A DNA stretch of 64,000 nt. It comes from Fischerella sp. PCC 9431. GTDB taxonomy: Bacteria; Cyanobacteriota; Cyanobacteriia; Cyanobacteriales; Nostocaceae. Below are positions 43,864 to 64,000 of this stretch, one piece after another. Position 1 is the first letter of the stretch. The number at the start of each line of letters is the position of its first letter. Both the position numbers and the translations under genes were made by a program. Location: contig NZ_KE650771.1 in the NCBI RefSeq assembly GCF_000447295.1, forward strand, positions 188,184 through 252,183. The letters are read 5' to 3'. The notes below the pieces were generated by a model that was not told the origin of the DNA, made no database searches, and worked only from the letters and a program-made list of their open reading frames with translations.

Positions 43864-44334
43864 TTATGGATCTAGCGAATATTTCATAGCAATCTTAATT
43901 GTTGCATTATTTCTCAGTGGGAAACTTGACTCTTTAAAATTTGGTATACCAGTTTTAACTGATATTGTTGGATTATTAGACACACCAAAACCCTCTTGTG
44001 GAATACCTAAAAAATCTCTGTTTAATTTGTAATCTCCATTTTGATCATCTACTACAGCGACAGCATAATTTCCAGGCTTTAATCCGTAGAATTGCTTTTT
44101 AATAGAACTTCCCTGAATCTGAACACAATCACTTTGCACTTCACTAGTATCACTCAGAGGAAATCCTTGTTCATTATTGTAAATTCTGAGGCAAACTTGC
44201 CCATTTTGATGACGGATTCCATTGACTAAAACAGTGAGATTGAGAGTGGAATTTTGATTTGCTTTTGCCAAGCCCAATATGACAAAATTAGAAACTAAAA
44301 ACAGATGAATTAGAGCAAGTCTATGTATGATCAT
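43864..44334 (-). CDS. DUF2141 exported protein
   Basis: About 156 residues, starting at ATG 44334 after discarding an in-frame TTG at 44343. A signal peptide (LALIHLFLVSNFVILGLAKA) is followed by the DUF2141 beta-sandwich: LNLTVLVNGIRHQNGQVCLRIYN, FYGLKPGNYAVAVVDDQNGDYKLN, and the ending FGVSNNP. Two cysteines may form a disulfide. Function is unknown; members are thought to be periplasmic or outer-membrane linked. It is the last of the co-directional genes of the polyketide region, 48 bp after the SDR gene, so it may or may not belong to the pathway. Confidence 0.82.
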   Translation of the reverse strand: MIIHRLALIHLFLVSNFVILGLAKANQNSTLNLTVLVNGIRHQNGQVCLRIYNNEQGFPLSDTSEVQSDCVQIQGSSIKKQFYGLKPGNYAVAVVDDQNGDYKLNRDFLGIPQEGFGVSNNPTISVKTGIPNFKESSFPLRNNATIKIAMKYSLDP

Positions 44335-44382
44335 ATTCAGCAAACCCTATTTAACAAGTTTCTCCCCAATACCCATTTCCTC

Positions 44383-45384
44383 TTACATTAATTTCTGAAT
44401 ATCTGTTATTTGCAACCATTCTTGAGTGTGTCGCATTCCCTGTTCTAAGTCAATTTTTGCCTCAAAATTTAAAAGCCTTTGAGCTTTGGAAATAGAATAA
44501 GCATAGGGACGAGAGAGAAAGTCTATAGTTTCTGGTAATAAATCAGCTTTTTTCCGAAAAAGTTTTTGTCCTTGTTCACGTACCCGCAGAAATAATTTGG
44601 CTTCATCTTTTGATAAAGAAAAAGGTACGGGTAAACCTGCTATTTCAGCTAAGTTTGTAAAATATTCTTTCCAAGAAGTATTTTTCCCATCAGTTATATT
44701 AAAAATCTCTCCGTATACTTCTTTTTCCATAGCCAGAAAAATGGCATCAATCAGGTTATCAATGTATAAATGGTTGATAACTCCTTGTCCATCGTTAATT
44801 AATGCGAATAAATTTCGCTGCATCATCACTATTGGTCGGACTATCCAGGGAATACTTCTCGGTCCATAAACATCACCTGGTCTAATGATAATGATCCCAA
44901 AATCTGGTGGAGTATTTAATTGTAAGAGTGCTGTTTCGGCTTCTATTTTTGTCTGACAGAAAGGATTATTCTCACCACGTAGTGGTCCCTCTTCCGTAAC
45001 ACCATCGGGATAGTTGAAACCGTAAACCATTGCACTTGAGAGATGAGTAAAAGTTTTGACACCAGCATTTTTCGCAGCTTTAGCCAGATTCACGGTTCCA
45101 CCCACATTGACCTCACGAAAATGCTTGAGTTGTCCAGTTTCTTGGACAATACCAGCTGTATGTAAAACAATGTCTACTCCCTGACAAGCCTTATGAGCAA
45201 TTGCAGAATCTGTGACACTACCAACCATTACTTCAGCACCTAGTTGTTGTGCTTTTTTGATTTTTTCTGCGGAACGTCCTAGTCCCCGGACTTTCATCCC
45301 TCGCGCTATGGCTAGTTCAGTAGTCCGCAAGCCAATAAATCCACCAATTCCTGAAATGAGGAGTGTTTGTCCGGAGAGGTTCAT
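44383..45384 (-). CDS. NAD-dependent epimerase/3-beta-HSD-type SDR with Phe in place of catalytic Tyr
   Basis: A 333-residue extended SDR. The cofactor motif is SGIGGFIG (11-18), TDS and HTAGIV follow, and SSAMVYGF gives the Ser region. At the position of the YxxxK pair the sequence reads F142-C-Q-T-K146. The codon is TTC, so the usual catalytic Tyr is replaced by Phe, while the Lys is kept. The rest (IIIRPGDVYGPRSIPW) is regular. It lies 54 bp after the PapA-like genes and 48 bp before the DUF2141 gene. It may reduce or oxidise a product of the cluster, act by an altered mechanism, or only bind NAD. Membership of the pathway is inferred from orientation and spacing. Confidence 0.82.
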   Translation of the reverse strand: MNLSGQTLLISGIGGFIGLRTTELAIARGMKVRGLGRSAEKIKKAQQLGAEVMVGSVTDSAIAHKACQGVDIVLHTAGIVQETGQLKHFREVNVGGTVNLAKAAKNAGVKTFTHLSSAMVYGFNYPDGVTEEGPLRGENNPFCQTKIEAETALLQLNTPPDFGIIIIRPGDVYGPRSIPWIVRPIVMMQRNLFALINDGQGVINHLYIDNLIDAIFLAMEKEVYGEIFNITDGKNTSWKEYFTNLAEIAGLPVPFSLSKDEAKLFLRVREQGQKLFRKKADLLPETIDFLSRPYAYSISKAQRLLNFEAKIDLEQGMRHTQEWLQITDIQKLM

Positions 45385-45438
45385 AAGAAAGTGGGTGTAG
45401 GAGTAATAAGAAGAATCTCTGTTTTTATCGGAACTGCT

Positions 45439-46827
45439 TTATGAATGACGGCGTCTAGGGATGCGACGAACGATACTCAAAGCAGGATACCGAGGAACCG
45501 CAATCATTTGATCAGCAAAAGTGAATTTTTTATTGTTACAAGCTTCAACAATACAAGCAAGAACGTTATCAGCGAGATTTTCTGCTGTTTCCTGACTGAT
45601 TGCAGGTTCAGAAAACATGAAATTCAAATACATTTTTTCTTCAAAAGTGAGAACCGCAACACATAGGCCTCTAAATGCTGCATTAGAAGTAACAAAGCTG
45701 ATTTCTTCAAGTTCAAATACACCATACTCTGAACGAATATTGACTCTACCTATATTTGTGACACCGACTGTGGAAAATACTTGATGAGGGTAAGCGAGAA
45801 GAAATTTAATCAATAGCTTGGTTAATAAGGGTAAACAGAAGACGCGATCGCTTTCTAAAGTCTTTTGCATTTGTTGTCTTCTGTTACGAGCTAAATTCCA
45901 GAAGCGAGTATTTGATTTTAAAGTATGACATGAGATATCACCAGAAACCAACACACCCAAATGTTCATCGCTGACTGGCGGTTTGAGTCGGTGACGCAGA
46001 TTGATTGGAGACCAACAGCTAACATTCAAATCTGTTTTTTGACCAGCACTGATTTTTCTACCTGTTGCAAACAACATCGCTGCACACAAAGCAGCGTGTA
46101 CTGTTGTTCTATTCTTTCTACAAATATTTATTAACTGTGTGGTTTGCTCCTCGTTGAGCTTTCTGTGAACAATACCAGTACGACGTGATGAAATTGGTGC
46201 GAATTTTTCAAAATTTAAGGTTTTTGGTCGGTAGCGAAGATCTCTGAACAAAAGTCTAAATATGCCTAAAAAGATATTAACTGCACCTTTCCATCCCTGC
46301 ATTGAGTCTGGTAAAAGTTTTTTAATCGGTGGTAATGCAGGTAAGCTGATAACTTCTATTGGTTCTAAAGAAATGAGTTTTTGGCAATATCTCAAAAGGT
46401 CTGAATGTAATTGCATACATGACAAACCGTCTGCGATCGCATGATGTATTGTTGTAATCACATAATTGACATTGCTCTCATTTTTCAGACGCACAAAGAC
46501 AACTCGCATCAAACTTTTGTCACTCTCTATTTTTTGATTGAGTTCTTCGTGAACGACTTCTTGCCACTGTTGCGCGTGCAGCTTTGTCACAACACGTAAA
46601 GGAATTTGGATGTCTCCAGTTTCAAAGCGTAAACTATTTAATCTACCGATAATCCGCGACTTAAGACGAGGATGACGTGCCTGTAACAACTCAAGAGCTT
46701 GTCTAACAATTTCTATGTTGAGGATTCCGTTAATTCGACAAATTGTAATTATATTGTATGTTGTAGCACGACGATTCAAAATCTCCATCGCTTGCTCGTA
46801 AGGAGAAAGTTTCCGATCATAGAGCAT
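45439..46827 (-). CDS. PapA-like acyltransferase (condensation-domain fold), copy 2
   Basis: A 462-residue BAHD/condensation-type acyltransferase resembling PapA5, which moves an acyl group from a carrier protein or CoA to an alcohol. The catalytic HHxxxDG is HHAIADG at residues 128-134. LNVSCWSPINLRHRL and FSTVGVTNIGRVNI (in place of the DFGWG-type signature) fit the stand-alone PapA group. It is a close tandem duplicate of the next gene upstream (46878-48284): 107 of the first 140 residues are identical without gaps by hand count. Placed in a polyketide cluster, it probably esterifies a hydroxyl of the product. Confidence 0.8.
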   Translation of the reverse strand: MLYDRKLSPYEQAMEILNRRATTYNIITICRINGILNIEIVRQALELLQARHPRLKSRIIGRLNSLRFETGDIQIPLRVVTKLHAQQWQEVVHEELNQKIESDKSLMRVVFVRLKNESNVNYVITTIHHAIADGLSCMQLHSDLLRYCQKLISLEPIEVISLPALPPIKKLLPDSMQGWKGAVNIFLGIFRLLFRDLRYRPKTLNFEKFAPISSRRTGIVHRKLNEEQTTQLINICRKNRTTVHAALCAAMLFATGRKISAGQKTDLNVSCWSPINLRHRLKPPVSDEHLGVLVSGDISCHTLKSNTRFWNLARNRRQQMQKTLESDRVFCLPLLTKLLIKFLLAYPHQVFSTVGVTNIGRVNIRSEYGVFELEEISFVTSNAAFRGLCVAVLTFEEKMYLNFMFSEPAISQETAENLADNVLACIVEACNNKKFTFADQMIAVPRYPALSIVRRIPRRRHS

Positions 46828-46877: not shown

Positions 46878-48284
46878 CTATTGATAGCGTCCAGAGCCTC
46901 GACGAGCAACACTCAAAGCAGTAGGAGCAGTTGAGATTAGCTGATGTTGAGGAAATGCAACAATTTGATCGGAAAAAGTGAATTTTGCATTGTTGCAAGC
47001 TTCAACAATACAAGCAAGGACATGATCGGCGAGAAATTCTGCTGTTTCCTGACTAATTGCAGGCTCAGAAAACATGAAATTCAAAACCATTCTTTTTTCA
47101 AAAGTGAGAACTGCAACACACAAACCCCCAAATGCTCCCCATGCAGGAACGAAGCTAATTTCTTCTAGTTTAAATACGCCATAATCCGCAGGAATGTTGA
47201 CTCTTCCTATGTTTGTGATCCCCACTGTGGCAAACATTTGGCGAGGAAATGTGATCAGAAAATCGGTTAACGGTTCAATTAATAAAGCTGAACAAAAGAC
47301 TCGAGCGCCTTCTGTACTTGCTTCCATCTGTTGTCTTCTGTTGCGAGCTAAATCCCAAAAGTTTGTATTTATCTTTAAGGTATGACAGGAAATATCACCG
47401 GAAACCAACACACCTAAATGCTCATCACTAACTGGCGGCTTAAGTCGGTTACGCAGATTAATGCTTGACCAACAGCTAACACCCACATTTGTGTTTTTAC
47501 CAGCATTGATTTTTTTACCAGCTGCAAATAACATCGCTGCACACAAAGCAGCGTGTACTGTTGTTCTATTCTTTCTACAAATATTTATTAACTGTGTGGT
47601 TTGTTCCTCGTTCAGCTTTCGTTGGACAATACCAGTACGGCGTGATTCTATAGGTGCAAATTTTTCAAACTTTAAGGTTTTTGGTCGGTATCGAATATCT
47701 CTTACCACATGTCTGAAGATGGTCAAGAAAATATTTAACGCACCTTTCCATCCCTGCATTGATTCTGGTAAAAGTTTTCTAATCGGTGGTAGTGCAGGTA
47801 AGCTGACGACTTCTATTGGTTCAAAAGATATGATTTTCTGGCAATATTCCAAAAGTTCTGAATGCAGTTGTATACATGACAATCCGTCTGCGATCGCATG
47901 ATGTATTGTTGTAATCAAATAATTGACTTTGCTGTCATTTTTGAAATGAACAAGGACAACTCGCATTAAACTTTTGTCGCTCTCTATTTTTTGATTGAGT
48001 TCTTCCCAAACAACTTCCTGTGACTGTTGTGAGTGTAGCTTTTTAACTACACGTAAAGGAATCTCGATATCTCCAGTTTCAAAACGCAGACTATCTAGTT
48101 TATCAACAATTCGAGAGTTCAGTCGAGGATGACGTAGCTGTAATAATTCCAAAGCTTGTCTGATGGTTTCTTCGTCGAAAAGTCCGTTGATTCGACAAGT
48201 CGTGACTATATTGTAAGCGCTAGCACGACGATTCACAATTTCTATAACTTGCTCCAAAGGAGAAAGTTCTCTATCATATAGCAT
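46878..48284 (-). CDS. PapA-like acyltransferase (condensation-domain fold), copy 1
   Basis: A 468-residue paralogue of the 45439-46827 gene, transcribed just before it (50 bp gap). HHAIADG again lies at 128-134. The N-terminus MLYDRELSPLEQVIEIVNRR is typical of PapA/WES-like acyltransferases that begin by touching an acyl carrier. The two copies differ most in residues 30-40, 117-120 and the C-terminal tail, so they may prefer different acceptors or donors. The substrate is unknown; the free ACP at 50398-50697 is a possible donor carrier. Confidence 0.8.
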   Translation of the reverse strand: MLYDRELSPLEQVIEIVNRRASAYNIVTTCRINGLFDEETIRQALELLQLRHPRLNSRIVDKLDSLRFETGDIEIPLRVVKKLHSQQSQEVVWEELNQKIESDKSLMRVVLVHFKNDSKVNYLITTIHHAIADGLSCIQLHSELLEYCQKIISFEPIEVVSLPALPPIRKLLPESMQGWKGALNIFLTIFRHVVRDIRYRPKTLKFEKFAPIESRRTGIVQRKLNEEQTTQLINICRKNRTTVHAALCAAMLFAAGKKINAGKNTNVGVSCWSSINLRNRLKPPVSDEHLGVLVSGDISCHTLKINTNFWDLARNRRQQMEASTEGARVFCSALLIEPLTDFLITFPRQMFATVGITNIGRVNIPADYGVFKLEEISFVPAWGAFGGLCVAVLTFEKRMVLNFMFSEPAISQETAEFLADHVLACIVEACNNAKFTFSDQIVAFPQHQLISTAPTALSVARRGSGRYQ

Positions 48285-48337: not shown

Positions 48338-50209
48338 TTAGCGATCGCTAATTTTTGCCTTCAAAGAAGCAAAATGTTTTCCACCCAGTTCAATTTGACC
48401 TTGTTGACATCCAGCTTTTAATCTTTCTAATAAATACTCCAAATCATGAGCTATAAAATTTGTGCCATGATCTGGTTCTACCAAGCTTACTAGGGCTGTA
48501 TTTTCTACCTCTTGATTTGCCAAGCTAGAAATACCTAAAAAATTTAGTACTCCTGATTCATAAGTTCCACAAGGAACTGAAGGATTGTTTACTCCAACAC
48601 AATATTCATTTTCTTTAAACCAGTCAGATGCTGGATAGCCATGAAAATGAACGATTGGCGCACCATTTTTAATAATTTCTGGTGTATATAAGGCAGCAGA
48701 TAAACTAATAGCAAGCATGACATAGATATCATAGGAAGGTTTAATATCTACTAACTCTGGATGAATACCTTGTGGTAATTGCAAAAATAACTTTTCTTTC
48801 AAACCAATCCGAATAATATCACTTTCAAGATTTAAATCTGTTTTGTTTGAGCCTGAACGAGAACTGACAAGCCAAATATCTGGAATCTGTTTAAATGTAT
48901 ATTCACCTTTGATATTGGTTTTAATGTAATATCTACCTTCATCATTCTGACGAAATTCATCACTACTAAATCCTGCAACCGACACTAGATTTTGCCACTC
49001 ATTTTCAGTGATTTCTGGTTTACCAACATATTGTGGCGGTTCTGCATAAGCAACAAAACCATAAGAGACACCTGTTCTTCCATTCACAATGACATTGACA
49101 ATATCTCTATGAGATTTTCTTTTAATAACTTCACACAGTTTAAACCCTGGTGGAAATAAACCTGTTGGTGCCAGATCATTACCTAATTTCACCAGTTTTG
49201 CCGCATAGCTAGATTCATGAGGATTATACTGACCTAAAGTAAATCGACTCAGTAAAAGTGGATATATTGGCACAAAAACTTTAGGCACTAATGAGTTTAA
49301 AACAAAGTGTTCGATCTCATTTTTAGGAAACACCGAATCAGAAAGATTCATATTTAAAATGGAAATTTTTTCTTGAGATACTCCAATTACCATTTCTGAA
49401 AATGTTCTGATGAGAGTGTTTAAGCCAATATTGATTTTTTCTTGATAAGAAATTAAAGGATTTGTAAAATCCTTATCTATTTCTGTTAAGGTAATTACTT
49501 GAGTATTAGTTGGATCTTCCATATATTTTGCTACATGATCTTCAGCCCAACTACTCAATTTCGCTATCCTAGAAACAGAAATTTCGCGATTTTTCAAGAT
49601 AAAGCGAGAGTACATTTGATACAAAGTCTCTGCTGCCAATACACCCAACTTTCTGAGAAAGTTAGGAGATTTTTCCACATCAATAACTGCATCTATTTCC
49701 GATTTGACACTCCTGATTTTGAAGCTTTGATTGAATTTGCTTATTGGTAAACTAATTTCGTAACTTAATTCACTTGTTGCTTCTTCCCAAGGTAAAACTT
49801 TTACTCCATACTCCTTGAGTTTCAATGTCAATTCTTCTCGAAATTTAATAATTTCTAACTGTTTGTAACTTTTGGGTAACGGTCTAAATGTAATTGTTAG
49901 CTTTTGAGCCATAACTTGAGGATCAATCACTGGTGGCTTATATTCCATATTTGATTGTTCAATAAATCCTCCAATTAAACGACCAATTGTTTGTAAGCTG
50001 AGTCCTATATTTAATGGAATAGAAGCAACTTTGAGAGCAACATCTCTATCTCGGAGCAAAGTTAAAATTTCGGCTTTGTGAGCAGTTAATTCTGCCTGTA
50101 TTTCTGGCGTCATTACCCCCTTTGGAGAACGAACATTTAGTTTATTATTGTTAACCCACAACTCAATACCATTTTGAGTCAAAGTTTCTAATATTTCATG
50201 TACTTTCAT
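48338..50209 (-). CDS. Large protein of unknown function with an N-terminal TubC-type docking domain
   Basis: A 623-residue protein. Residues 1-52 form a TubC_N docking domain (VHEILETLTQNGIELWVNNN..., LTAHKAEILTLLR), a module that normally connects subunits of NRPS/PKS assembly lines. The remaining 570 residues match nothing I recognise. They are mixed alpha/beta, contain GRTGVSYGFVAYAEPPQY and a His-rich PIVHFHGYPASDWF (about 525) that could be catalytic or metal-binding, and have no membrane helix. It lies between the ACP gene (188 bp upstream) and the PapA-like genes (53 bp downstream). The docking domain implies it acts on a chain carried by a megasynthase subunit, possibly one encoded beyond the right edge. 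Confidence 0.75.
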   Translation of the reverse strand: MKVHEILETLTQNGIELWVNNNKLNVRSPKGVMTPEIQAELTAHKAEILTLLRDRDVALKVASIPLNIGLSLQTIGRLIGGFIEQSNMEYKPPVIDPQVMAQKLTITFRPLPKSYKQLEIIKFREELTLKLKEYGVKVLPWEEATSELSYEISLPISKFNQSFKIRSVKSEIDAVIDVEKSPNFLRKLGVLAAETLYQMYSRFILKNREISVSRIAKLSSWAEDHVAKYMEDPTNTQVITLTEIDKDFTNPLISYQEKINIGLNTLIRTFSEMVIGVSQEKISILNMNLSDSVFPKNEIEHFVLNSLVPKVFVPIYPLLLSRFTLGQYNPHESSYAAKLVKLGNDLAPTGLFPPGFKLCEVIKRKSHRDIVNVIVNGRTGVSYGFVAYAEPPQYVGKPEITENEWQNLVSVAGFSSDEFRQNDEGRYYIKTNIKGEYTFKQIPDIWLVSSRSGSNKTDLNLESDIIRIGLKEKLFLQLPQGIHPELVDIKPSYDIYVMLAISLSAALYTPEIIKNGAPIVHFHGYPASDWFKENEYCVGVNNPSVPCGTYESGVLNFLGISSLANQEVENTALVSLVEPDHGTNFIAHDLEYLLERLKAGCQQGQIELGGKHFASLKAKISDR

Positions 50210-50397: not shown

Positions 50398-50697
50398 TCA
50401 AATCTCAAATGATTCAGAATCTACCAATTCTTCTGCCAAACGCTTGCTTAAGGCTTCAATAGTAGGATAATGCCACAACAGAATCAGAGATATCTTAAAT
50501 CCAAACAATTTTTCTGCTCTGCTGGTAATAATCATCCCCTGTGCTGAATCTAAGCCGTAACTGTCTAAAGGTTCTCGGATATCTATCTCATCTGGTTCAA
50601 CTCCCAGCATCTCAGAAATGTTAGAGACTAGCCAGGCTTGTATTTCTTCTGCTGTGTAAGACTGTTTAGCACCTGAATTAATCACAGACTGACTCAT
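50398..50697 (-). CDS. Stand-alone acyl carrier protein
   Basis: A 99-residue carrier protein. The phosphopantetheine attachment site is [11 protein letters not shown], with the Ser in LDS at about residue 51, preceded by the typical [14 protein letters not shown]. The short length and Ala after DS are of the type I-associated kind found in hybrid PKS clusters. It sits between the flavin-dependent halogenase and the TubC-docking protein, and probably holds the acyl group used by the halogenases or the PapA-like enzymes. Confidence 0.9.
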
Positions 50698-50823: not shown

Positions 50824-52302
50824 TCAAGTTTTTGACTGATCACCTGAAACCATCGATTGCTCTGGATGATTGAGGTCATGGGCTGGAGTAGTTGATACGA
50901 CTGGATTGCTAAAATTTTCACTTCTCAAGGATTCTATGGTTTTTGCGATCGCCTGTGGTGATTCTGAGTAGAATTCAGGGTGAGTGTTCCAAGCTGACAT
51001 ACCCAACAGCTTTTCACACACCCTGCCAATTCCAATCAGAAGAATGCAGAATACCCAAGAACAATAAAGTGCCAAGTGGAATTCCTCATAATACCCACTA
51101 CCCCAGGCAACCAAGCGCCTCAGTAGTAGACTGTCCCAATGGTTGCTATACTTGCCAGTTAGCTTCACAAAAACTTCCATGGAAGCCCGGTATTTCAGCA
51201 TTTTGTACATGAGTCCCATAGTTGTAGAAACATGAAAATGCTCCTTCTGACTCCACTTTTCGTACTGCTGGAAAGCTTTAGTGTCCCGATTGTTCTTCAA
51301 AAATCCATCAATAACATCTGCTGCTTTTTCTGCCGAACGAAAGGCGAGGTGTACCCCAGACGAGAAAAGAGGATCAACAAAAAAATTGGCATCTCCCACA
51401 AGAATCCAGCCATTCCCCACAGAGTGTTTTGAGGCGTAGGATAGATTGTGCAACATTCGGACTTTGGAAAATTGTTCGGCCTGCTCAAACCGCTCTTGGA
51501 TAAACTTATACTGCTTAATATAAGTCAGTAGAATTTCCTCTGGGCTTTTCTGCTTCCACCAACTTGTTCCCGGCTCGTTCATTACCACTCCAATACTCAT
51601 GATGTCTGATGCAAGCGGAATGAACCAGATCCACCCGTTTTCAATCACGTATCCGTTAAAGTAGCCTTGCCGAATACCAGAAGCGCGGGTGACATGCCTG
51701 AAGTGTCCAAATACAGCCGAGGTTTTGATCGTTTTGTTCGGAGTCAGGAATTTACGGCTTCTGCTGATCAAAGCGTGCCGCCCTGAGCAATCAGCAATGC
51801 ATTTGGCTTTGGTGATGTATTCAATATTGTCTTTGCTTTTCCAACGGATTCCAGTTGCTTCCTCACCTTCCCAAAGGACTTCTTTAACCACAGCCTCCTC
51901 AAAAATTGTGACTCCCTCTTTCCTAGCATGATTAAGTAGAAACAGGTCAAACTCACTTCGCTCTACTTGATATGCATAAGGGCGCTGTTGAAGCCTTTGC
52001 GTGGGAAATTTATAAAATTCTTGTCTGCTGTACTCGTATTCAGACTGCTGTGGATTCAGCCCAATCCGAATTTCTGTACCATATTTAAATGTGTTACCCA
52101 GATGCTGCAATGACTCAGCAATCCCTAGCTTTTCCCAAATTAACTGGGTTGCAGGCAAAAGAGACTCCCCTACATGAAAACGGGGAAATTTTTCGCGTTC
52201 GAGTACCAAAACCTGATATTTTTTCCGAACCAACAAGGTAGCTAAGGTGGAGCCAGCAGGACCTCCTCCAATAACAACAACATCATAATGGCTGTGATTC
52301 AT
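50824..52302 (-). CDS. Flavin-dependent halogenase-like oxidoreductase
   Basis: A 492-residue FAD enzyme. The dinucleotide motif is GGGPAGS (16-22, numbering from the in-frame TTG four codons before the ATG). The halogenase signature WxWxIP is W228-I-W-F-I-P233 and the conserved Lys of the chlorinating pocket is probably K77 in NTFKYG. LVGDANFFVDPLFSSGVHLA closes the FAD site. These motifs put it among halogenases acting on carrier-bound or free phenols rather than Trp. The C-terminus (about 415-450) contains a hydrophobic helix, unusual for the family, suggesting membrane contact. The start is ATG 52302. A plain monooxygenase or reductase cannot be excluded without alignment. Confidence 0.75.
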   Translation of the reverse strand: MNHSHYDVVVIGGGPAGSTLATLLVRKKYQVLVLEREKFPRFHVGESLLPATQLIWEKLGIAESLQHLGNTFKYGTEIRIGLNPQQSEYEYSRQEFYKFPTQRLQQRPYAYQVERSEFDLFLLNHARKEGVTIFEEAVVKEVLWEGEEATGIRWKSKDNIEYITKAKCIADCSGRHALISRSRKFLTPNKTIKTSAVFGHFRHVTRASGIRQGYFNGYVIENGWIWFIPLASDIMSIGVVMNEPGTSWWKQKSPEEILLTYIKQYKFIQERFEQAEQFSKVRMLHNLSYASKHSVGNGWILVGDANFFVDPLFSSGVHLAFRSAEKAADVIDGFLKNNRDTKAFQQYEKWSQKEHFHVSTTMGLMYKMLKYRASMEVFVKLTGKYSNHWDSLLLRRLVAWGSGYYEEFHLALYCSWVFCILLIGIGRVCEKLLGMSAWNTHPEFYSESPQAIAKTIESLRSENFSNPVVSTTPAHDLNHPEQSMVSGDQSKT

Positions 52303-52468
52303 GAAATTGACCAACTTAAATTTAATATCTAAATCTCATCAATCTATTAAATTCCTATTAAATTCCTATTCAATTTTTGTTGGCGTAGCCTACGCTTTGC
52401 CCTTAAAAACTCACTACACTCCCTATTTATTGTTAAGAGTTCACCGTATTCATGAGTAAGTTCATGAA

Positions 52469-55554: not shown

Positions 55555-55675
55555 ATGAATTAAATCTGGAGCATTACTTCAACTCGGTTTAAACATTCAC
55601 TGCGTCACTGCATCGGGTGCGTCTGTCTTCACCCATCAATGTTGCGTTGGTTGAGTAGTAGCTATACAGCACAAA

Positions 55676-56827
55676 TTAAACGGCTGTTAGGTGCATATAA
55701 GCATATGAAAACCTAGCACTCTCAGGAATAAAACAAAAGATTTTATCGCCTTGTTGAATTTTTCCTGATGCCATCAATTCCTCCAGGATAACAAAGATAG
55801 AGGCAGAGCCTGTATTACCCTTGTAGGTTAGGTTAGTAAACCATTTATCAAATGGAATTTCAAATCCAACTTTCACCAACTCATCGTAAAGTGGCTGCTT
55901 GAAATGTTCTGATGAGTAATGAGGCAAATACCAAGTGATATCATCTGCTTTTAAGTTATGTTTATCTCGCACTTGTGTAAAGCCTTTTTGAATCGCGTAG
56001 AAAACTATATTTTCCCCTAGCAGCTTTGCATCCTGTTTTAAGGCAAAATAACTCTCCTTCCATACTTCTTCTAGATTTTCGACTTCCCGCCACCCTTGTA
56101 AAGAACCATCGTCTTTCTTGATGCTTCCTGCATACATACAAGTCTCTAGTTCATTAGCAAAAGAGATAATATCAACCCAATCTATTCTGAGTGAAATACC
56201 ATTTTGACGAGGAGTATCCGTTATCAACACTGCTGCTGCGGCATCGGAAAGCATCCACCTTAAAAAATCCTTCTCAAAACCGATCATAGGTTTTGCTGCC
56301 AAATCTTGAATTTTTGCTTCTATTTCTGGTTGAAAGTAAACTCCCTTAAATGCAGTTGATGCAAGTTCTGATCCTGTTGTTACAGCATTTTTGCTTAAAC
56401 CAGAAAATACATTCATGTATCCATACTTAAATGCAGTCATCCCTGAGCAGCAAACACCGCTTGTGGCTACAACTTCACAGGGAGGGCATCCAAGCTCTCC
56501 ATGCACCATAAGAGCATGGTTAGGAATTATCTGATCTGGAGAAGATGTACCACAGACTAAACAGTCTATTTCTTCTAATAAAAGATTAGTGTTTCTTGTA
56601 AGAACACGTACTGCTTCGGCAGTTAATTGTGCATTGTTATGAGTTTGTTTACCAGTTTTAGGATCTATTGCATAATATCGAGATTTGATACCGTTGTTAT
56701 TGAGAATGCGATTTTTGGATCGAGATGGCTTTCCATTAATAAAGCCAAGAACTTTTTCGATCTCCTCATTATTCACTGGTTCATTAGGTAGAAAAACTCC
56801 TAAACCAGTAATGTATGCTGAAGCCAT
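55676..56827 (-). CDS. Ketosynthase III-type enzyme, DarB-like (dialkylresorcinol formation)
   Basis: A 383-residue thiolase-fold condensing enzyme. Catalytic residues: Cys in TSGVCCSGMTAF (second Cys, about residue 127), His in LPHYSSEHF, Asn in YKGNTGSAS. The long insert between Cys and His fits the DarB/BrtC type, which joins two beta-ketoacyl thioesters, rather than FabH. The start is ATG 56827 with GGAG 8 nt upstream; an in-frame TTG at 56839 overlaps that ribosome binding site and is rejected. It directly follows the DarA-like gene (75 bp). A 3-oxoacyl-ACP synthase of another specificity is possible. Confidence 0.82.
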   Translation of the reverse strand: MASAYITGLGVFLPNEPVNNEEIEKVLGFINGKPSRSKNRILNNNGIKSRYYAIDPKTGKQTHNNAQLTAEAVRVLTRNTNLLLEEIDCLVCGTSSPDQIIPNHALMVHGELGCPPCEVVATSGVCCSGMTAFKYGYMNVFSGLSKNAVTTGSELASTAFKGVYFQPEIEAKIQDLAAKPMIGFEKDFLRWMLSDAAAAVLITDTPRQNGISLRIDWVDIISFANELETCMYAGSIKKDDGSLQGWREVENLEEVWKESYFALKQDAKLLGENIVFYAIQKGFTQVRDKHNLKADDITWYLPHYSSEHFKQPLYDELVKVGFEIPFDKWFTNLTYKGNTGSASIFVILEELMASGKIQQGDKIFCFIPESARFSYAYMHLTAV

Positions 56828-56902
56828 AATTTTCTCCAATTAGATTCACAGGACTAACAAAAATACAGTAATTTTTGTCAGGTTTTCAGTTATTTTTAAT
56901 TT

Positions 56903-57820
56903 TTAAAAAATACCTGATGGTGATTTCAAATTCTCAACATAAGATGCTAATTTCCGATTAATTAAAAAGCTAAAAACAAATTGCACGAGTGTAGAAAATA
57001 GAAGAACAATAGGAATAGCAAATAGGAGTTGAATTACAAAGATACAGATAATCGGTATTCTGCTCCAACTTCCCTGTTTACCAAAAGAACGAGCTATCTT
57101 GGCCCACGGTCGATATAGTACCCGCCCAATTAATTCCGGAATCACATAACGTTGATTAACTTCAACAGCTCCAAGCCCTTGAAGCATTGGCTGATGAGAA
57201 TCATCACTTAACGCTTCAATATTGTCAGCTAAACGCTTGCCAAATCTTGATAGTGCATGGATATCTTCATCTTTAACCCCCGCAGCAGGTAATACTCCCA
57301 ATAATCTGTTTTTTTTCCCAGTAAGTAATAGTCGGGGAGTGGTAATGAAGGTAGCTAAAGGTGGCCCTTGGTGAGTCAAAACTACATTGTCGATATGAAT
57401 ACCTCCAACTTCAGCAATCATTCTCTTCATGATTTCTGAGGCGGAGTGCCACATATTCCGACAAACTACTAAAGTGATAACTTTGGTATTCTTCAAAACT
57501 TTTGCATACTTGGATTTTAAAAATCCTTGAATTGGTAAAGATGGTGCCAAAAACCAAACTTGATAAGCAAGAATAACTAAATCGAACTTCTCGTCTTGAC
57601 TAAATTTCGGTGGAGATATTTCCGGAGGCTCCTCGTTCACACATTCTGGAAAAACATCAAAAAACTTATACAATTTCCAAGGAGAAGGATAATTATCTCT
57701 TGGTTTAATACACTCCCAGGTAAGCTCTATTTCTGGAATATTGAGATATTTGGTAAAAGATTCAGCCGCACGAGTCACATCCCCCGATTGTGAGTAATAA
57801 ACTACCAGTACACGTTTCAT
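56903..57820 (-). CDS. DarA-like flavodoxin-fold protein (dialkylresorcinol condensing enzyme)
   Basis: A 305-residue protein starting VLVVYYSQSGDVTRAAESF, a flavodoxin-type nucleotide loop, with VILAYQVWFLAPSLPIQGFL typical of the flavodoxin-like fold. DarA proteins of this size partner DarB-type ketosynthases and complete the cyclisation and aromatisation to a dialkylresorcinol. Here a DarB-like gene follows 75 bp later. The C-terminus holds a hydrophobic helix pair (about 262-292), suggesting membrane attachment where long-chain products would accumulate. Classification by resemblance to the annotated DarA family, not tested. Confidence 0.75.
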   Translation of the reverse strand: MKRVLVVYYSQSGDVTRAAESFTKYLNIPEIELTWECIKPRDNYPSPWKLYKFFDVFPECVNEEPPEISPPKFSQDEKFDLVILAYQVWFLAPSLPIQGFLKSKYAKVLKNTKVITLVVCRNMWHSASEIMKRMIAEVGGIHIDNVVLTHQGPPLATFITTPRLLLTGKKNRLLGVLPAAGVKDEDIHALSRFGKRLADNIEALSDDSHQPMLQGLGAVEVNQRYVIPELIGRVLYRPWAKIARSFGKQGSWSRIPIICIFVIQLLFAIPIVLLFSTLVQFVFSFLINRKLASYVENLKSPSGIF

Positions 57821-57908: not shown

Positions 57909-59558
57909 CTATTTCGGCTGATACTGAATGTAGTTAGCTGGCATTTGTAATCCTTGGATTTGTAAACTCTGCATTCGGAATAAAAATGTAGTTCCTCTCA
58001 TAATATGGTTAGCAACATCAACCACTTGCCGATTATGTGGTTCAGCTAGATAAGTACCTTTTACCCAGTCATTAAAACTACCCATTGCTGGACCACACCA
58101 AATTTGATAATCAATTTCTCGACCTTTTTCTCCAGAGTTAGACCAGCGAGATGATAATCCAAGATACCAACGAAAAATTAGAGCCATCTTCAATTTAGAA
58201 TTGTTGGCAGCTTTGATTAATTTATCGGGATTTCTTTGGGATAAATAGGCTGCTGTTTCCTTCCAAATCACTTCCAATTGATTTCTAAAAACTTGTTTTT
58301 CTAGTTTTTCTTTTTCTTCAGATGGGATATCTTCAATTGAATCATATGTTTTGTATAAATCTAGTAATTTTTGCGCCCTGAGAGGAAAGAAAGTTCCTCT
58401 TTTTAAAACTTGAAGTTTTACTCCCATTTCAAACATATCTGCTGCTGGAGCCATCATCACATCAGCCATCTCGGCTTGAGCTAATAATTGTTTTGTATGT
58501 TGAGAAGTTCCAGCTTCCACACAAGACTGATTAATAGAACCAGTAACAACATAAGCAGCGCCCATCATAAAAGCAGCTAATGCCGATTGGGGAGTTGCAA
58601 TTCCTCCTGCTGCTCCAACTCGAACAGGTCTTTCGTAACAGTATTTGTTTTGAATTTCATCTCTCAATTCTATAATTGAAGATAAAAGGCAAACTAGAGG
58701 ACGATTATCTGTATGACCACCAGAATCAGCTTCTACAGTGATATCATCTGCCATTGGAACTTGTTCGGCTAGTTTTGCCTGAAATTCGCTGATCAAACCT
58801 TGTTCAACTAATTGCTTGAGAATTTTTGTAGGAGCAGGCTGAAGAAATTTGCTTGCAACTTCTCTGCGAGAAATCTTAGCAATGACTTTATTTTTAATTT
58901 CAATTTGATTAGCTGCATTTAAACTAAGTCCAGAAGCTCGATAGTAAACGATGTTGTCAGTTAAATCCAAAAAAGCAGAAGCTTCTATTGTTCTCACTTG
59001 ATATTTGAGATACAAATCAACAGCGCTACGTTCAATCGCAGGTTCGCTAGGACTGTGGAGTAAGTTAAAAACGTAAGGACCCTCTGGTAAAGCTTGTTGA
59101 ATGCGTTTAATAGCTGCTTCGACACGGGAAGGAGATAGTCCTCCTGCGCCAAATGAGCTTAAAATTCTTTCTTTTCCAAGAGCAATGACTAGTTCTTCAG
59201 AAGCAATACCATGAGCCATTGCACCAGTCATATAAGCATATTTAACATTGTAAAAATCTAAGAAATTGCGATCGCCTAACTGTTGAATAGCTAGGGGTGG
59301 AACAGCTAGGAGCATTTCCACTTTTCCTGTTTGTCCATTGGAATGGTACAAGTAACCTTCGTTGGTTACACCAATTTCATCATCTAATCTAATAATGTAA
59401 CAGGGTTTCTCTAAATTCAGTAGCTTAGTTTTTATACCTTCTTGATCAAAAGAAACAGAATCTAAAGAACCTTCCCAAACTTGATTTTGCTTGTGACAAA
59501 ACTCTGAAAATTTTAAGTTGTTTGGATTTTTAAGGATTATAGTATTTAAAATACTCAC
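57909..59558 (-). CDS. PfaD-type trans enoyl reductase (PUFA/polyketide synthase)
   Basis: A 549-residue TIM-barrel flavoenzyme of the PfaD family. Family signs are NVKYAYMTGAMAHGIASEELVIALG, FGAGGLSPSRVEAAI, ADSGGHTDNRPLVCLL and GAAGGIATPQSALAAFMMGA. It reduces enoyl intermediates in trans for PUFA-type synthases and related heterocyst-glycolipid-type systems. The start is GTG 59558. It lies 135 bp after the KS-AT gene and 88 bp before the DarA-like gene, so it belongs to the same unit. Confidence 0.92.
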   Translation of the reverse strand: MSILNTIILKNPNNLKFSEFCHKQNQVWEGSLDSVSFDQEGIKTKLLNLEKPCYIIRLDDEIGVTNEGYLYHSNGQTGKVEMLLAVPPLAIQQLGDRNFLDFYNVKYAYMTGAMAHGIASEELVIALGKERILSSFGAGGLSPSRVEAAIKRIQQALPEGPYVFNLLHSPSEPAIERSAVDLYLKYQVRTIEASAFLDLTDNIVYYRASGLSLNAANQIEIKNKVIAKISRREVASKFLQPAPTKILKQLVEQGLISEFQAKLAEQVPMADDITVEADSGGHTDNRPLVCLLSSIIELRDEIQNKYCYERPVRVGAAGGIATPQSALAAFMMGAAYVVTGSINQSCVEAGTSQHTKQLLAQAEMADVMMAPAADMFEMGVKLQVLKRGTFFPLRAQKLLDLYKTYDSIEDIPSEEKEKLEKQVFRNQLEVIWKETAAYLSQRNPDKLIKAANNSKLKMALIFRWYLGLSSRWSNSGEKGREIDYQIWCGPAMGSFNDWVKGTYLAEPHNRQVVDVANHIMRGTTFLFRMQSLQIQGLQMPANYIQYQPK

Positions 59559-59693: not shown

Positions 59694-62600
59694 TTATTTT
59701 TTCTGAAAAATATGCTGTAAACAATCTAGTTGAAGCTGAATAATAGCACTTATTTGAAGTAATGATTCTTGTCGAATCTCTAAAAAGTTACTGTGAGACT
59801 TAGTGATCCGAGAAGTATTTTCACTTAAATTTTGATATAACTGATTTCGGAAATTTGTCATATGCTCTTGATGAATGGAAATGTGAATTTTTGAAATAGA
59901 AGCAGAGACATATTGGGAACTTTCATTTTCTCTTGTATTAATATTTAATTTTTCTTCAGATTCCCAGAATTTTAAAGAGTTTTGCTGATAATAATTCTCA
60001 AGTCTTTCAAATTCATTGAGATCTAGTACTTTATATTGTTCTTTTTCATCACCTTTAATCGGAATATCTGAATCTGTAGCTTGGGAATTTTTTTTAGTTT
60101 TGTTGTTTAATGAAATGAAGTTCAAATCATTGCGGTTCCAAGCTATTGTTCTAACCTTGTGTTGGCTTTTTCTAATATTTTCCTGGACTTGAAAATATAG
60201 TGATGACAAGTCCATTTTTACTCTATGACTGAGGAGCTTTGCTAATGCTTTAACAATACAGCTATACTCATCTATCCCTCTCTTATTGAGAGAAACTATC
60301 ATATGTTCTTGTTGCGTGAGATTTCCGCTAATCCATCTCGAACAATTACTTCCAGCACCAACTTCAATAAATATTCTGGCACCGTCGTCCCAGACACGCT
60401 GAATTAGCCGAGGAAAATCAAGCTGTTGAACAAGCATTTTGGCAATGTTGTGTCCAATAGAATCACTGTTGAGGCTAATAGGTTTATATTCTGCGGCAGA
60501 ATAAAAAATGATATTTGGTACGTTTTGGGTAGGTAAGGTATTTAGTTTAACAAGTGCATCGTATTCAGAACGTATTGGCTCACAATGAATTACATGATTG
60601 AAAGGAGCAAGAAAAGCATCACAATTGAGAGTTTTTATCACTCTTTGACAGGCTTTTGTATCACCTGCGATCGCCACTTCTTCTGGAGTATTAATGATAG
60701 ATAAGTAGACATACTTCTCATGTTGAAGAACTTCTCGAACACGGGAAACTGGACACATGAGAACGTAGGTACTCCAAAAATTTTCACCTTCACTATCCTG
60801 TTGTTGGGGTAATTCCCAATATTTGCGAACTGCATTTTTAGGACCGGATAACTGGGTTTTAAACAGAGCATAGGAACTCAAGCCTTCACTACCTTCATGA
60901 AAACGTGTCCAGATACCCTGAGAAAGCATCATACTAGTTTCACCCAGGCTATAGCCAAAAGCATATTGGGGCTGTAGTTGGAAATAATTTCTCAGAACAG
61001 CAGTCAATAATCCAGCAACACCAACCTCAGATTCGAGCATTGCAACTGGATCATCTATGAATTGCTGTTCAAGTTTTTCTAATTGCCTTGTTGATAATTT
61101 GCTCAGGCTTCTGGGATAGAGAATTCTTTCTATATTGTTGACACGAGTGTAAACGCTTTTGATGATCGGATCTTCGTAAATTTTGGGAAACAAGCGGAAG
61201 AGATTGCGGGCGATACCGAGATAAGAACTGTAAGCGCCAGGATAAACGAAAGCAACATTACCTTTGTTACCCAATGGTTTTGGCGTAAAATAGCTACCGA
61301 CAGGTGTTTGCCATTCTTTACCTGTATTGAAAGCATCGGCAACACCTTTGATAGCACGCTGAATTTCTCGTGTCAATTCTTGTTGATTGCGTCCGAGAAT
61401 TGCAAGTGCGTAAGTAGGATTTTGACGCTGTTGAAAGGCTTTAAAAGTCAGGCTTGCAGCAGCAGATAGAGAAGAAGAATTAGCAATTGTTTCTTGTAGA
61501 GAACGGATCTGCTCTAGTAGCGTCGGACAATCGTCAGCTGTGATCGCAAACAAATAAAAGGGCATTTGCTCTAAATATCTGCTGCTACGCTGTATCTGAG
61601 TTGGTTCCTCCGACAAAATTAAATGTGCGTAACTGCCATCTATCTCCATACTGTTAATAGCTGCAATTCTTTTAGTGGCTCCTCTCTCTAAAAACCAGGG
61701 CTTTGATTCAGGAGCAACATAAAAGGGACTATTCTGCCAAATCTGCGGCATTTTGGGAGCAGACCAGTGGGGAACACCAGGAATGTAACGGTGATACAAA
61801 CAGAGTGCTGTTTTAATTAAACTGACTAGTCCTGATGCAGCATAAGTATGACCAATGTTGGCTTTGACACTACCAATCGCACAACTCAGATCAGCCTCAC
61901 AAGTCTGATAAGCTCGCATCAAACCTAGCATTTCTGACTCATCTTGCTGAGGAACTCCACTAGCAAAAACTTCGAGATAGCCGATGTCAGTGGGTTGAAT
62001 ACCTGCCAAATCAAAAGCAAGTTGACATACTTGCGTGACTGCTTTCGAGTCAGGGATTGTGTGAGAGGAAGAATTATCTTTCAAGATATTGAGAGCATCA
62101 ACTACCGCATAGATACAGTCATTGTCTTGTTGTGCTGTTGTGTGAAGCTTCAATACTACGGCGGCTGCACCCTCACCTAGCATCCAACCATTAACATTTT
62201 GATCATAACTTAAACTATTAACACCTGTATTGGATTTTGCCGTTTGATTTTGCACTAAAAGACTAAGGCTATTCTCAGCTAGCTCGACAGCACCGACAAC
62301 AACAGCGTCTACTTCTCCGATTGCAAGTAGCTTTTTTGCAACTTCCAAAGCTTTAAATATTGAATGTTGTTCGGCAACTAGTGTAAATAAAGGACCAGCA
62401 AAATTCCACAGATTGGAAATACTGTCTTTTCCTTCTGGTTTAAGAATACGAAGAGAAAGTTCGGTTGCAGCAACAATAATAACTGCTACCCTGCTTCCTT
62501 TGTTGAAATTTACATCTTTGATAGCATTGTCAGCTACCTGGAGCATCAATAGTTCTTGAGGTTTGAATTTGTCTTCCTCAGATGCTAATTTAAAATCCGA

Positions 62601-62846
62601 AAAATCTATTTCAAAATCTTTAATGTATGCTCCCAAGGGTGCGATATTAGTGTCAAAATTATTGTTGTTGAGTAAGTGTTCTTGGGTTGTAAATTCTTGC
62701 CATCTCTCATTAGGAAAAGTAGCAAAGTGTTGAGTTACTTCATAAATGCTACGTTCAAAAGCATCTAATCCTTGACAACCACCTAAAAAACAATCCATAC
62801 CAACAATTGCTACTTTAGGATTTTTAATTTGTTCATCTTTTTTCAT
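59694..62846 (-). CDS. PUFA-synthase-type KS(CLF)-AT subunit
   Basis: A 1050-residue protein. Residues about 10-415 form a ketosynthase fold in which the active-site Cys is replaced by Gln160 (VAEQHSIF, the spacing to the GE pair matching the normal motif) and the first catalytic His is Phe294 (EVFASG), while K328 and H333 (SVKANIGHTYAASG) remain. This is the chain-length-factor pattern. Residues about 525-860 form an acyltransferase with nucleophile Ser633 in GYSLGE. The last 170 residues are polar, Asn/Ser-rich and helical. HglC/PfaC-type subunits have similar layouts. It must work with a true KS on another protein, probably the one running off the right edge. Confidence 0.88.
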   Translation of the reverse strand: MKKDEQIKNPKVAIVGMDCFLGGCQGLDAFERSIYEVTQHFATFPNERWQEFTTQEHLLNNNNFDTNIAPLGAYIKDFEIDFSDFKLASEEDKFKPQELLMLQVADNAIKDVNFNKGSRVAVIIVAATELSLRILKPEGKDSISNLWNFAGPLFTLVAEQHSIFKALEVAKKLLAIGEVDAVVVGAVELAENSLSLLVQNQTAKSNTGVNSLSYDQNVNGWMLGEGAAAVVLKLHTTAQQDNDCIYAVVDALNILKDNSSSHTIPDSKAVTQVCQLAFDLAGIQPTDIGYLEVFASGVPQQDESEMLGLMRAYQTCEADLSCAIGSVKANIGHTYAASGLVSLIKTALCLYHRYIPGVPHWSAPKMPQIWQNSPFYVAPESKPWFLERGATKRIAAINSMEIDGSYAHLILSEEPTQIQRSSRYLEQMPFYLFAITADDCPTLLEQIRSLQETIANSSSLSAAASLTFKAFQQRQNPTYALAILGRNQQELTREIQRAIKGVADAFNTGKEWQTPVGSYFTPKPLGNKGNVAFVYPGAYSSYLGIARNLFRLFPKIYEDPIIKSVYTRVNNIERILYPRSLSKLSTRQLEKLEQQFIDDPVAMLESEVGVAGLLTAVLRNYFQLQPQYAFGYSLGETSMMLSQGIWTRFHEGSEGLSSYALFKTQLSGPKNAVRKYWELPQQQDSEGENFWSTYVLMCPVSRVREVLQHEKYVYLSIINTPEEVAIAGDTKACQRVIKTLNCDAFLAPFNHVIHCEPIRSEYDALVKLNTLPTQNVPNIIFYSAAEYKPISLNSDSIGHNIAKMLVQQLDFPRLIQRVWDDGARIFIEVGAGSNCSRWISGNLTQQEHMIVSLNKRGIDEYSCIVKALAKLLSHRVKMDLSSLYFQVQENIRKSQHKVRTIAWNRNDLNFISLNNKTKKNSQATDSDIPIKGDEKEQYKVLDLNEFERLENYYQQNSLKFWESEEKLNINTRENESSQYVSASISKIHISIHQEHMTNFRNQLYQNLSENTSRITKSHSNFLEIRQESLLQISAIIQLQLDCLQHIFQKK

Positions 62847-62958
62847 TACTTAATCTTTATCTCTCTAGCTATGTATATTTTGGTAAATAAATTAGAATTG
62901 AGAAAAGGATAGAGAGACAAAAGATTATCAATATCTCCTTGTCTCTTGTTTTATCCTT

Positions 62959-64000
62959 CTAATCTTTAAATCTTCTGGACAAAATAGTTCCCTTTGCTCC
63001 AATCATGCGATTATATATTTTACCTTCAATATCATGTGCAATCACATCAGCAGTCACAGATGATTCTGTCTTTGACTTTATTTCACAAGAAACGTAAAAA
63101 GGTTGATCAAATGGTATAGGTGCAAACTGCTCAAGAGTTTTAATTTCTGATGGTAAACATCCTTGTTGATGAAAATATTGCGTCCAAATCCACAGTGCAT
63201 GAATCTGAACATCTGCAATATAGGGATTAAAAGTTTTTACAGGAAATTGTCCTTGTTTTCTTTCCTCAAGATTTGGCAAAGCACATTCTATAGTTATTTT
63301 TTCAGGGCTAGCATTTAAGATAGTTTGTACACCCTGAAAACAAGAACCATGAAATAAGCTTGATGCCCCATTTTGATAAAGTGATTTACTAGAACCGAAA
63401 ATTATTTCTTCCTGTCTCAAATTCAGCAAACCATACTTAGGAAAAACTGGAATTTGCTGCTTAATGTTTAACTGACTGCTGAAATGGTAACGAGTTTTTC
63501 CTTCTGGATTCTTACTCCATATTTTAGCATCAAAATGAATCTCGTCAACATCATTTTTAGAAATTTCTTGCAAATCTAAAATGTATTCATTTGGCTGATT
63601 TTGCTCAAAAATAATTCCTTTTAAAACTTTGAAGTTTGAGCAACTAAATGATTTGTAGCCAGGATAAAGTTGTTCACAAGTATTGGCAATCCATGTGAGA
63701 GCGCAAGTGGCAGGTAAAACTGGACGACCAGCAATGACATGATCTTGTAAAAATGGATTGGCTGCTAAGATTAATCGGCGCTGGATACGATATTGTTTCA
63801 ACTCTGGGTTGGACGACTGAGGTATGTACACTAAGGGACTACCTATTACCACTTGCGTAGTTAGTTGATTCACTGGTGCTAGTTCATCAACTAACATTTG
63901 AGTTCCAACTTCTATAGGAATAGTCTCTATACTCCTTTCGGCAAAAGCTTTTTTCAACTCTGGTGTTACCATACCACTATCCCAAGGTCCCCAATTAATC
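62959..64000 (-). CDS. Polyketide synthase C-terminus: ketoreductase end and dehydratase domain (partial)
   Basis: The C-terminal part of a larger protein. The frame stays open through the right edge. Codons just upstream of the first in-frame ATG (63972) read NWGPWDSG, the conserved end of a KR domain, so that ATG is internal. The KR tail is followed by a dehydratase hot-dog domain: HVIAGRPVLP has the H-x3-G-x4-P motif (H78, P87 from the internal Met) and IADVQIHALW gives the catalytic Asp. It matches the KR-DH end of HglE/PfaA-type synthases. The rest, presumably KS, AT and ACP repeats, is outside the window. Confidence 0.88.
   Translation of the reverse strand, partial: INWGPWDSGMVTPELKKAFAERSIETIPIEVGTQMLVDELAPVNQLTTQVVIGSPLVYIPQSSNPELKQYRIQRRLILAANPFLQDHVIAGRPVLPATCALTWIANTCEQLYPGYKSFSCSNFKVLKGIIFEQNQPNEYILDLQEISKNDVDEIHFDAKIWSKNPEGKTRYHFSSQLNIKQQIPVFPKYGLLNLRQEEIIFGSSKSLYQNGASSLFHGSCFQGVQTILNASPEKITIECALPNLEERKQGQFPVKTFNPYIADVQIHALWIWTQYFHQQGCLPSEIKTLEQFAPIPFDQPFYVSCEIKSKTESSVTADVIAHDIEGKIYNRMIGAKGTILSRRFKD

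Follow-up and report, generated by a model that had tools for sequence, protein, structure and literature searches.

The bartoloside (brt) cluster of Synechocystis salina holds BrtB, BrtJ and homologs of DarA and DarB, so that a halogenase of the CylC type and an enzyme of the CylK family occur there together with the DarA/DarB pair (PMC7081238; PMC8916777). In the account given by PMC7081238 the bartoloside chains derive from primary metabolism, CylK needs a free C-2, which is absent in bartolosides, and BrtB esterifies the alkyl chloride with fatty acids. Cryptic halogenation by CylC and then CylK is also found in the cylindrocyclophane (cyl) cluster, where the type III polyketide synthase (PKS) CylI provides a monoalkylresorcinol. 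In the nostochloroside (ngl) cluster of Nostoc punctiforme, a PKS with ketosynthase (KS), acyltransferase (AT), ketoreductase (KR), dehydratase (DH), enoyl reductase (ER) and acyl carrier protein (ACP) domains is combined with CylC and CylK homologues, and the CylK homologue NglO, which has Glu in its nucleophile site, uses an oxygen nucleophile and makes ethers (PMC10849952). A further group of loci are the compact hgl-like islands (hgdCB + hglEAFGCA), which are widespread in heterocystous cyanobacteria and whose product is not known (PMC11804610). Here, we analyzed a stretch of 64,000 nucleotides (nt) of Fischerella sp. PCC 9431 (C1:188184-252183 in a genome of 7,167,426 bases on 8 contigs), hereafter called the window, which carries 14 genes on the minus strand at positions 43864-64000. 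With a probability of roughly 0.55, we read them as part of one biosynthetic and export locus, i.e., a compact hgl-like island with a DarA-DarB-CylK-CylC(-halogenase) cassette, the lipid of which would be O-alkylated, acylated and exported. The parts are known, and the combination, which is of the bartoloside, cylindrocyclophane or nostochloroside kind on an hgl-like chassis, is uncharacterised.

The 14 open reading frames (ORFs) are co-directional with intergenic gaps of 39-188 bp and encode, in the order of transcription, a PfaA-type synthase, a chain length factor-acyltransferase (CLF-AT), PfaD, a DarA-like, a DarB-like, a CylK-like and a CylC-like protein, a flavin halogenase, an ACP, a TubC_N protein, two PapA-like proteins, a short-chain dehydrogenase/reductase (SDR) and a DUF2141 protein. 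They are a single cluster, which had already been stated with this gene order in the initial annotation of this DNA and is present in the ORF calls; of the gaps of 48-188 bp given there, the upper value is right, whereas the lower one has to be replaced by 39 bp. Since the same order recurs in Fischerella muscicola SAG 1427-1, in which all 14 genes are found with 80-96% protein identity and are preceded by DevBCA and the remainder of PfaA, the gene set is beyond chance. The rightmost gene had been described as a PKS with KR and DH domains. Both domains are there, but they are only the C-terminal end (62959-64000) of a PfaA (HglE)-type iterative PKS of 2394 amino acids that runs past the window. 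The extension of the contig to the right, which had been proposed as a check, yielded the full gene (L005:3143-10327, reaching the extended window coordinate 70143) and then a divergent DevBCA exporter. Enzymes and single cluster of the earlier reading are retained. The hgl-like island context had not been named in it, and the exporter was beyond its view.

The PfaA-type protein consists of KS (DAACASSL), AT (GHSFG), two ACP motifs, KR and DH, and reaches 2251.8 bits with TIGR02813. It is followed by the CLF-AT (PfaB/HglC-like, 59694-62846; TIGR02816), in which an AT (GYSLG) is preceded by a ketosynthase-like domain that has no active-site Cys motif, and by a PfaD-type enoyl reductase (57909-59558; TIGR02814, 660.8 bits, cut-off 449), so that the NCBIfam profiles for PfaA, PfaB and PfaD all pass. 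About 2.3 kb beyond the PfaA start, the divergent genes for DevB, DevC and DevA (L005:12628-15814) encode proteins that all pass their NCBIfam cut-offs (TIGR02971, TIGR01185 and TIGR02982, respectively). In PMC11804610 hgl-like islands are recognized by hgdB/hgdC together with PUFA-type (polyunsaturated fatty acid-type) synthase genes, and the locus has both, as it shares DevB/DevC and the PfaA/CLF-AT/PfaD-type genes with the compact islands. Such islands are also present in the genomes G292 and G383, where DevBCA is divergent from PfaA, CLF-AT and PfaD, after which come genes for an ACP, a TubC-like protein and one or two PapA-like proteins. The island of G315 is similar, but has no PapA-like gene, and its PfaA and CLF-AT are distributed over several open frames. 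These three islands differ from the window, as DarA, DarB, CylK and CylC were not found in any of them by locus comparison. In the PfaD tree the window stands with the copies from hgl-like islands, apart from the other hgl-type PfaD of the same genome (support 95/92). The simplest account would be an hgl-like island that carries the cassette between PfaD and ACP. The same genome has a further hgl-type island (L007, C1:3799000-3818000), which holds homologs of PfaA, CLF-AT, PfaD (73% identical), ACP and SDR; the locus thus comes in addition to another hgl-type island, as expected for the hgl-like islands of PMC11804610.

The cassette begins with a DarA-like aromatase of dialkylresorcinol synthesis (56903-57820, minus strand as all 14 genes; 305 amino acids) and a DarB-family ketosynthase (55676-56839). 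DarB and DarA convert two acyl thioesters into a 2,5-dialkylresorcinol. DarB has the Cys, His and Asn residues in the motifs CCSG, HYSS and GNTG, respectively. The protein passes the StlD/DarB ketosynthase model NF005293 with 572.2 bits (cut-off 450) and has 500.5 bits with the stricter dialkylresorcinol DarB model NF053539, which is below the cut-off of 550. In the tree, the window DarB and five relatives join the bartoloside-type DarB with support of 100/100 against 26 other cyanobacterial DarB proteins, and the bartoloside-like loci thus provide the group nearest to it. DarA is 51-52% identical to the DarA adjoining bartoloside-type DarB and about 30% identical to proteins beside DarB on all three matching Streptomyces plasmids (3/3); this homology and the position beside DarB are what supports its assignment as a putative DarA.

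The CylK/BrtB-family alkyl-halide-using enzyme (53782-55554) has the CylK-like architecture of an N-terminal Ca2+-type domain and a C-terminal beta-propeller. Its best match is the CylK of the PDB (E 2.3e-155), with 273 of 572 aligned residues identical (48%), and the phmmer match covers both domains in one stretch (query 12-589 against CylK 75-662). The alkyl chloride residues are kept, as R42 aligns with Arg105 and Y401 with Tyr473. Both are needed for catalysis and tied to alkyl chloride binding and CylC partnership in PMC8916777, and their equivalents are invariant in 21/21 rows of the first CylK alignment and likewise in the second set. The nucleophile site, however, is altered, with E371 at the position of Asp440 and A310 at that of Glu374, and hence the residues of CylK proper, which performs resorcinol C-alkylation, are not found here. 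Glu at the Asp440 position has been reported for BrtB and NglO, which are both O-alkylating, as has Arg at 374 in BrtB. The idea that Glu at 440 proves O-alkylation was rejected, as Glu is general in the family in both CylK alignments. In the CylK tree the window and five relatives form a clade of their own (100/99) outside the clade with the PDB CylK; the bartoloside-type row does not group with the window and sits on a long branch of unsure placement, and a second CylK of Dendronalium falls outside the window clade. This suggests that the CylK proteins of the window clade may be defined as a new CylK subfamily.

The nucleophile site is also where the strongest of the alternatives has to be weighed, according to which CylK would form C-C bonds between the free C-4/C-6 of one dialkylresorcinol and the alkyl chloride of another, leading to a cyclophane or a dimer. 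A resorcinol-forming pair is encoded alongside, the chloride-binding residues are kept, the exchange of Asp440 to Glu retains a carboxylate, and the window protein is closer to CylK (48%) than to the bartoloside-type protein (~32%). Nevertheless, the two residues proposed to contact the resorcinol, Glu374 and Asp440, are Ala and Glu in the window, and in the second set they are both kept by L161 only, which is the sister of the PDB CylK in the tree, outside the window clade; the homologs L155_1, L162 and L168 have Asp440 without Glu374. Moreover, CylK attacks C-2, a position that already carries an alkyl substituent in the products of DarA/B, as PMC7081238 argues for bartolosides. With C-2 substituted and Glu374 lost, a Friedel-Crafts cyclophane is therefore less likely, and we regard C-C bond formation as unlikely. 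O-alkylation is favored instead, because the C-2 argument of PMC7081238 applies and the nucleophile site has changed. This also bears on the product named in the initial annotation: a chlorinated, O-modified dialkylresorcinol remains the probable class, whereas cyclisation or dimerisation via a ring carbon does not fit well with an alkylated C-2 and the changed site.

The next gene encodes a CylC-type dimetal (diiron) aliphatic halogenase of 410 amino acids (52469-53701). It contains ExxQExxH at residues 133-140 and HxxDExxH at 246-253 (QERHH at 136, HFLDESFH at 246), and E133, Q136, E137, H140, H246, D249, E250 and H253 are invariant in 16/16 aligned homologs. QExxH and HxxDExxH (PMC12101540) as well as ExxQExxH (PMC12871659) are given as motifs of CylC dimetal halogenases. 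The protein has no match in Pfam or NCBIfam and matches PDB sequences at chance level only; as a predicted aliphatic halogenase it is supported by motifs and homology. The CylC proteins of six genomes (7 rows) form a clade with support of 100/98. For the CylC homolog NocO, the assay of PMC12101540 used a chain bound to an ACP, and PMC8406957 expects such substrates for other CylC homologs too. The enzyme assignments of the initial annotation hold: CylK is recognized by its PDB match and DarB by its profile, CylC has both the motifs and the homology, and no result placed the DarA/DarB-like pair in unrelated families, DarA being recognized by homology and position only. The proposed trees with characterised or bartoloside-type members place CylK in its own clade and give a weak grouping for CylC. 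Elsewhere in the same genome (L078/L079, C1:6693000-6732999) two more CylC homologs, ACPs and PKS-like proteins are encoded, and two large proteins there have stretches resembling the TubC_N docking domain.

The flavin-dependent halogenase (CndH/PltA-like, 50824-52314) shows GxGxxG, WIWFIP, FFVDPLFSSG (Fx2Px2SxG) and K77, and its best PDB match is 3e1t, which we take to be CndH. A conserved Lys is catalytic in flavin-dependent halogenases, and K77, in a KxG stretch, aligns with the Lys of PltA and 3e1t. A mere oxygenase, considered as one Lys of 3e1t is Leu here, was rejected, as K77 is present. WxWxI and Fx.Px.Sx.G are listed as flavin-dependent halogenase motifs in PMC12871659. The enzyme belongs to the cluster in the window and in SAG 1427-1, as the initial annotation had it, but not every related cluster has it: that of G350 has no such gene between CylC and ACP, and the flavin halogenase is therefore optional, an add-on. 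In the whole genomes of G350, Cyanomargarita and Dendronalium no match was obtained at E 1e-30. A search of 43 genomes gave close relatives (at least 64% identical) in three. Two of these have it within the cluster; the third genome has two copies, one directly before a CylK homolog (L162) and one on a 7.4-kb contig with no recognized neighbor. The recurrence is suggestive, though the sample is small. At L162:3496-7240 the 64% identical flavin halogenase lies directly upstream of a CylK homolog with Asp440, and the CylC match of that genome is on another contig.

In a set of 388 genomes from the order to which the window belongs, homologs of CylC were found in 112 (E up to 1e-20), of DarB in 41 (1e-40) and of CylK in 35 (1e-80). 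At these thresholds, CylC and DarB occur together in 7 of the 388, and within about 10 kb in four (G000, G350, G036, G078); they are on different contigs in G091 and G098, and in G051 on different contigs among the matches listed. The loci of G036 and G078 look bartoloside-like by their DarA, DarB, CylC and CylK. Their CylK homolog is ~32% identical, and that of G078 agrees with the description of BrtB in having Arg at position 374 and Glu at 440. A scan of genome contigs with the CylK alignment gave at least 79 loci, with a CylK homolog over at least 500 residues in at least 30, and DarA and DarB were also present in at least four of the loci: F. muscicola SAG 1427-1, F. muscicola PCC 7414, Cyanomargarita calcarea and Dendronalium phyllosphericum. 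PCC 7414 has DevBCA and PfaA (two open frames) to CylC and G350 has DevBCA and PfaA to the TubC-like gene, both followed by the contig end. In Cyanomargarita the island starts with DevBCA, PfaA, CLF-AT, PfaD, ACP, a PKS with thioesterase, a type III PKS-like, an ICMT-like and an SDR protein, and continues with DarA, DarB, CylK, two CylC, an O-methyltransferase, ACP, a TubC-like protein and DUF2141; in this island (L153) a type III PKS-like protein is thus found alongside DarA/DarB, and the two CylC genes are adjacent. Dendronalium carries DarA-DarB-CylK-CylC and a glycosyltransferase-like protein on a 35.7-kb contig. Altogether, the cassette is present in at least six genomes (the window, G350, both F. 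muscicola, Cyanomargarita and Dendronalium), and every one of these has a CylK that belongs to the window clade. In Moorena (L167) and G042 (L237) a CylK homolog is located beside a PUFA-type synthase, in G042 with CylC too, and no DarA/DarB was found within the stretches examined of either.

At the nucleotide level, the window shares 88-91% identity with G350 in DarB, CylK and CylC, compared with 82-85% for SAG 1427-1. From PfaA (2.5 kb compared) to DarA, and from the flavin halogenase to DUF2141, the identity to SAG 1427-1 is 90-94%, and G350 has 82-86% in PfaA to DarA, ACP and TubC-like, where fully aligned. The identity switches near 56.8 and 52.4 kb, and the block closer to G350 comprises window positions 52400-56800. 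The trees show the same, as the window pairs with SAG 1427-1 in those of PfaD (100/100) and DevB (99/97) and with G350 in those of CylK (100/99) and CylC (100/95), and its DarB stands with G350 and Dendronalium (91/97). It therefore looks as if DarB-CylK-CylC had been exchanged as a block, leaving a recombination mosaic inside the cluster, and their joint movement suggests that the three are probably one working unit.

The same block exchange could be taken for a second alternative, in which two pathways share one operon and the island makes its own long-chain lipid, while the DarAB-CylKC cassette draws on acyl chains of primary metabolism as in the bartolosides, the chains of which have this origin (PMC7081238). 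The block has moved relative to its surroundings, the island exists without the cassette (G292, G383, G315), and the cassette exists without the island on its contig (Dendronalium). However, at least five genomes (the window, SAG 1427-1, PCC 7414, G350 and Cyanomargarita) have the cassette downstream of PfaD and in the same orientation. In four of them the contig continues beyond the cassette, and there the ACP and TubC-like genes of the island come next, which suggests one expression unit. Two separate pathways thus appear rather improbable to us.

Among the proteins encoded by the remaining genes, the free-standing ACP with a GLDS motif (50398-50697), the protein with a TubC_N docking domain and a conserved domain of ~570 amino acids of unknown function (48338-50209) and the DUF2141 protein (43864-44343), the N terminus of which is hydrophobic, all pass their Pfam cut-offs. 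The TubC-like protein occurs in 64 of the 388 genomes (E up to 1e-15), and an AlphaFold2 model from 7 sequences has a mean predicted local distance difference test score (pLDDT) of 47; its ~570-amino-acid domain is common to hgl-like islands and several CylC/CylK clusters. Both PapA-like acyltransferases (46878-48284 and 45439-46827) carry the HHxxxDG motif as HHAIADG and pass PapA_C and Condensation of Pfam, while the PapA5 models of NCBIfam are matched below their cut-offs. An NAD(P)-dependent extended SDR (44383-45384) was assigned by Pfam (Epimerase/3Beta_HSD).

From the observed gene content, families, active-site residues, synteny and trees a pathway can be proposed, in which substrates, order of steps and product are predictions. 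PfaA, CLF-AT and PfaD would build a long, partly reduced acyl chain, which CylC may chlorinate at an unactivated carbon while ACP-bound. DarB would couple two acyl thioesters and DarA would aromatise the ring to a 2,5-dialkylresorcinol; where present, the flavin halogenase may chlorinate the electron-rich ring or a diketone precursor. CylK would then displace the alkyl chloride by an oxygen nucleophile, a fatty-acid carboxylate or a hydroxyl, with esters or oligomers joined by ether links as the outcome. Hydroxyls might be acylated by the PapA pair, and DevBCA would export the lipid. We infer as product a bartoloside-like chlorinated dialkylresorcinol lipid.

Several observations weigh against this reading of the locus. 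DarA has no Pfam or NCBIfam profile match, and no AMP-ligase for ACP loading was matched among the 14 genes in the profile search. One of the tandem ACP motifs of PfaA reads LGIDAVK, with Ser replaced by Ala, the other being LGIDSIK. Glu at 440 is the family default (21/21 CylK homologs in the first alignment) and therefore no mark of O-alkylation by itself, and the window CylK is without the Arg of BrtB at 374. The CylC clade joins bartoloside-type and PUFA-linked CylC weakly (70/96). Within the exchanged block, a patch of CylK at 54.3-54.8 kb is 91-93% identical to SAG 1427-1 versus 94% to G350. The cassette-bearing islands do not form a single clade in the tree of PfaD or in that of DevB (2 changes in each), so that one or more gains, or a loss, are possible; in the PfaD tree G315 is placed, weakly, among them. 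Finally, no PUFA-type genes were recognized on the 35.7-kb contig of Dendronalium, the closest DevB match being on another contig, and the cassette can therefore stand apart. The last alternative, in which CylK would not act productively on the majority of molecules and the pathway would end with a plain acylated dialkylresorcinol bearing alkyl and, via the flavin halogenase, aryl chlorine, agrees with the accumulation of chlorinated bartolosides and nostochlorosides (PMC7081238; PMC10849952) and with PapA enzymes that alone could acylate, but is highly improbable given an intact CylK that is kept between DarB and CylC in at least six genomes, with active-site Arg and Tyr invariant in the aligned rows.

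Compared with the described systems, the locus differs from brt by a CylK that probably belongs to another clade and by the presence of a PUFA-type synthase, of DevBCA, of two PapA-like proteins and of a flavin halogenase, and no glycosyltransferase was recognized among its 14 genes. It differs from cyl, as CylK there has both Glu374 and Asp440 and the resorcinol is of type III PKS origin. The ngl cluster leads to a gulose glycolipid from a palmitate starter and includes a fatty acyl-AMP ligase (FAAL); DarA, DarB and a dialkylresorcinol are unmentioned in the main text of PMC10849952. In the cyst phenolic lipids of Azotobacter vinelandii a PUFA-type synthase feeds its chain to a phenolic head group as well, but the head group comes from a type III PKS, and the available text of PMC13291983 mentions no halogenation. 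The initial annotation had known of no such gene set. For the full combination this holds within the open-licence literature searched, where no description of it and no characterised cluster with the same set was found. A PUFA-type synthase beside CylK, however, also occurs in Moorena (L167) and, together with CylC, in G042, the ngl cluster joins CylC and CylK to a PKS, and DarA/DarB with CylC in Nostocales is a class already reported: PMC8406957 counts eight dialkylresorcinol-type CylC clusters, some of them in Nostocales, and window-type loci may therefore be among them.

As a more far-reaching and rather doubtful idea, some hgl-like islands might make exported dialkylresorcinol envelope lipids, which here would be cross-linked or oligomerised via cryptic chlorination; the new CylK subfamily would do this with a nucleophile of its own, and a second, aryl chlorine would come from the flavin halogenase. 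If true, the product would be a halogen-dependent, cross-linked outer lipid and not a small diffusible metabolite. The new CylK subfamily offers a nucleophile that is open to testing, and the presence or absence of the flavin halogenase among relatives is a natural comparison for its role. Since the island carries a halogen handle, halide depletion with liquid chromatography-mass spectrometry (LC-MS), as described in PMC10849952, makes the question of the hgl-like product testable in a cultured strain, and the locus could thereby reveal the product of an orphan lipid gene island.

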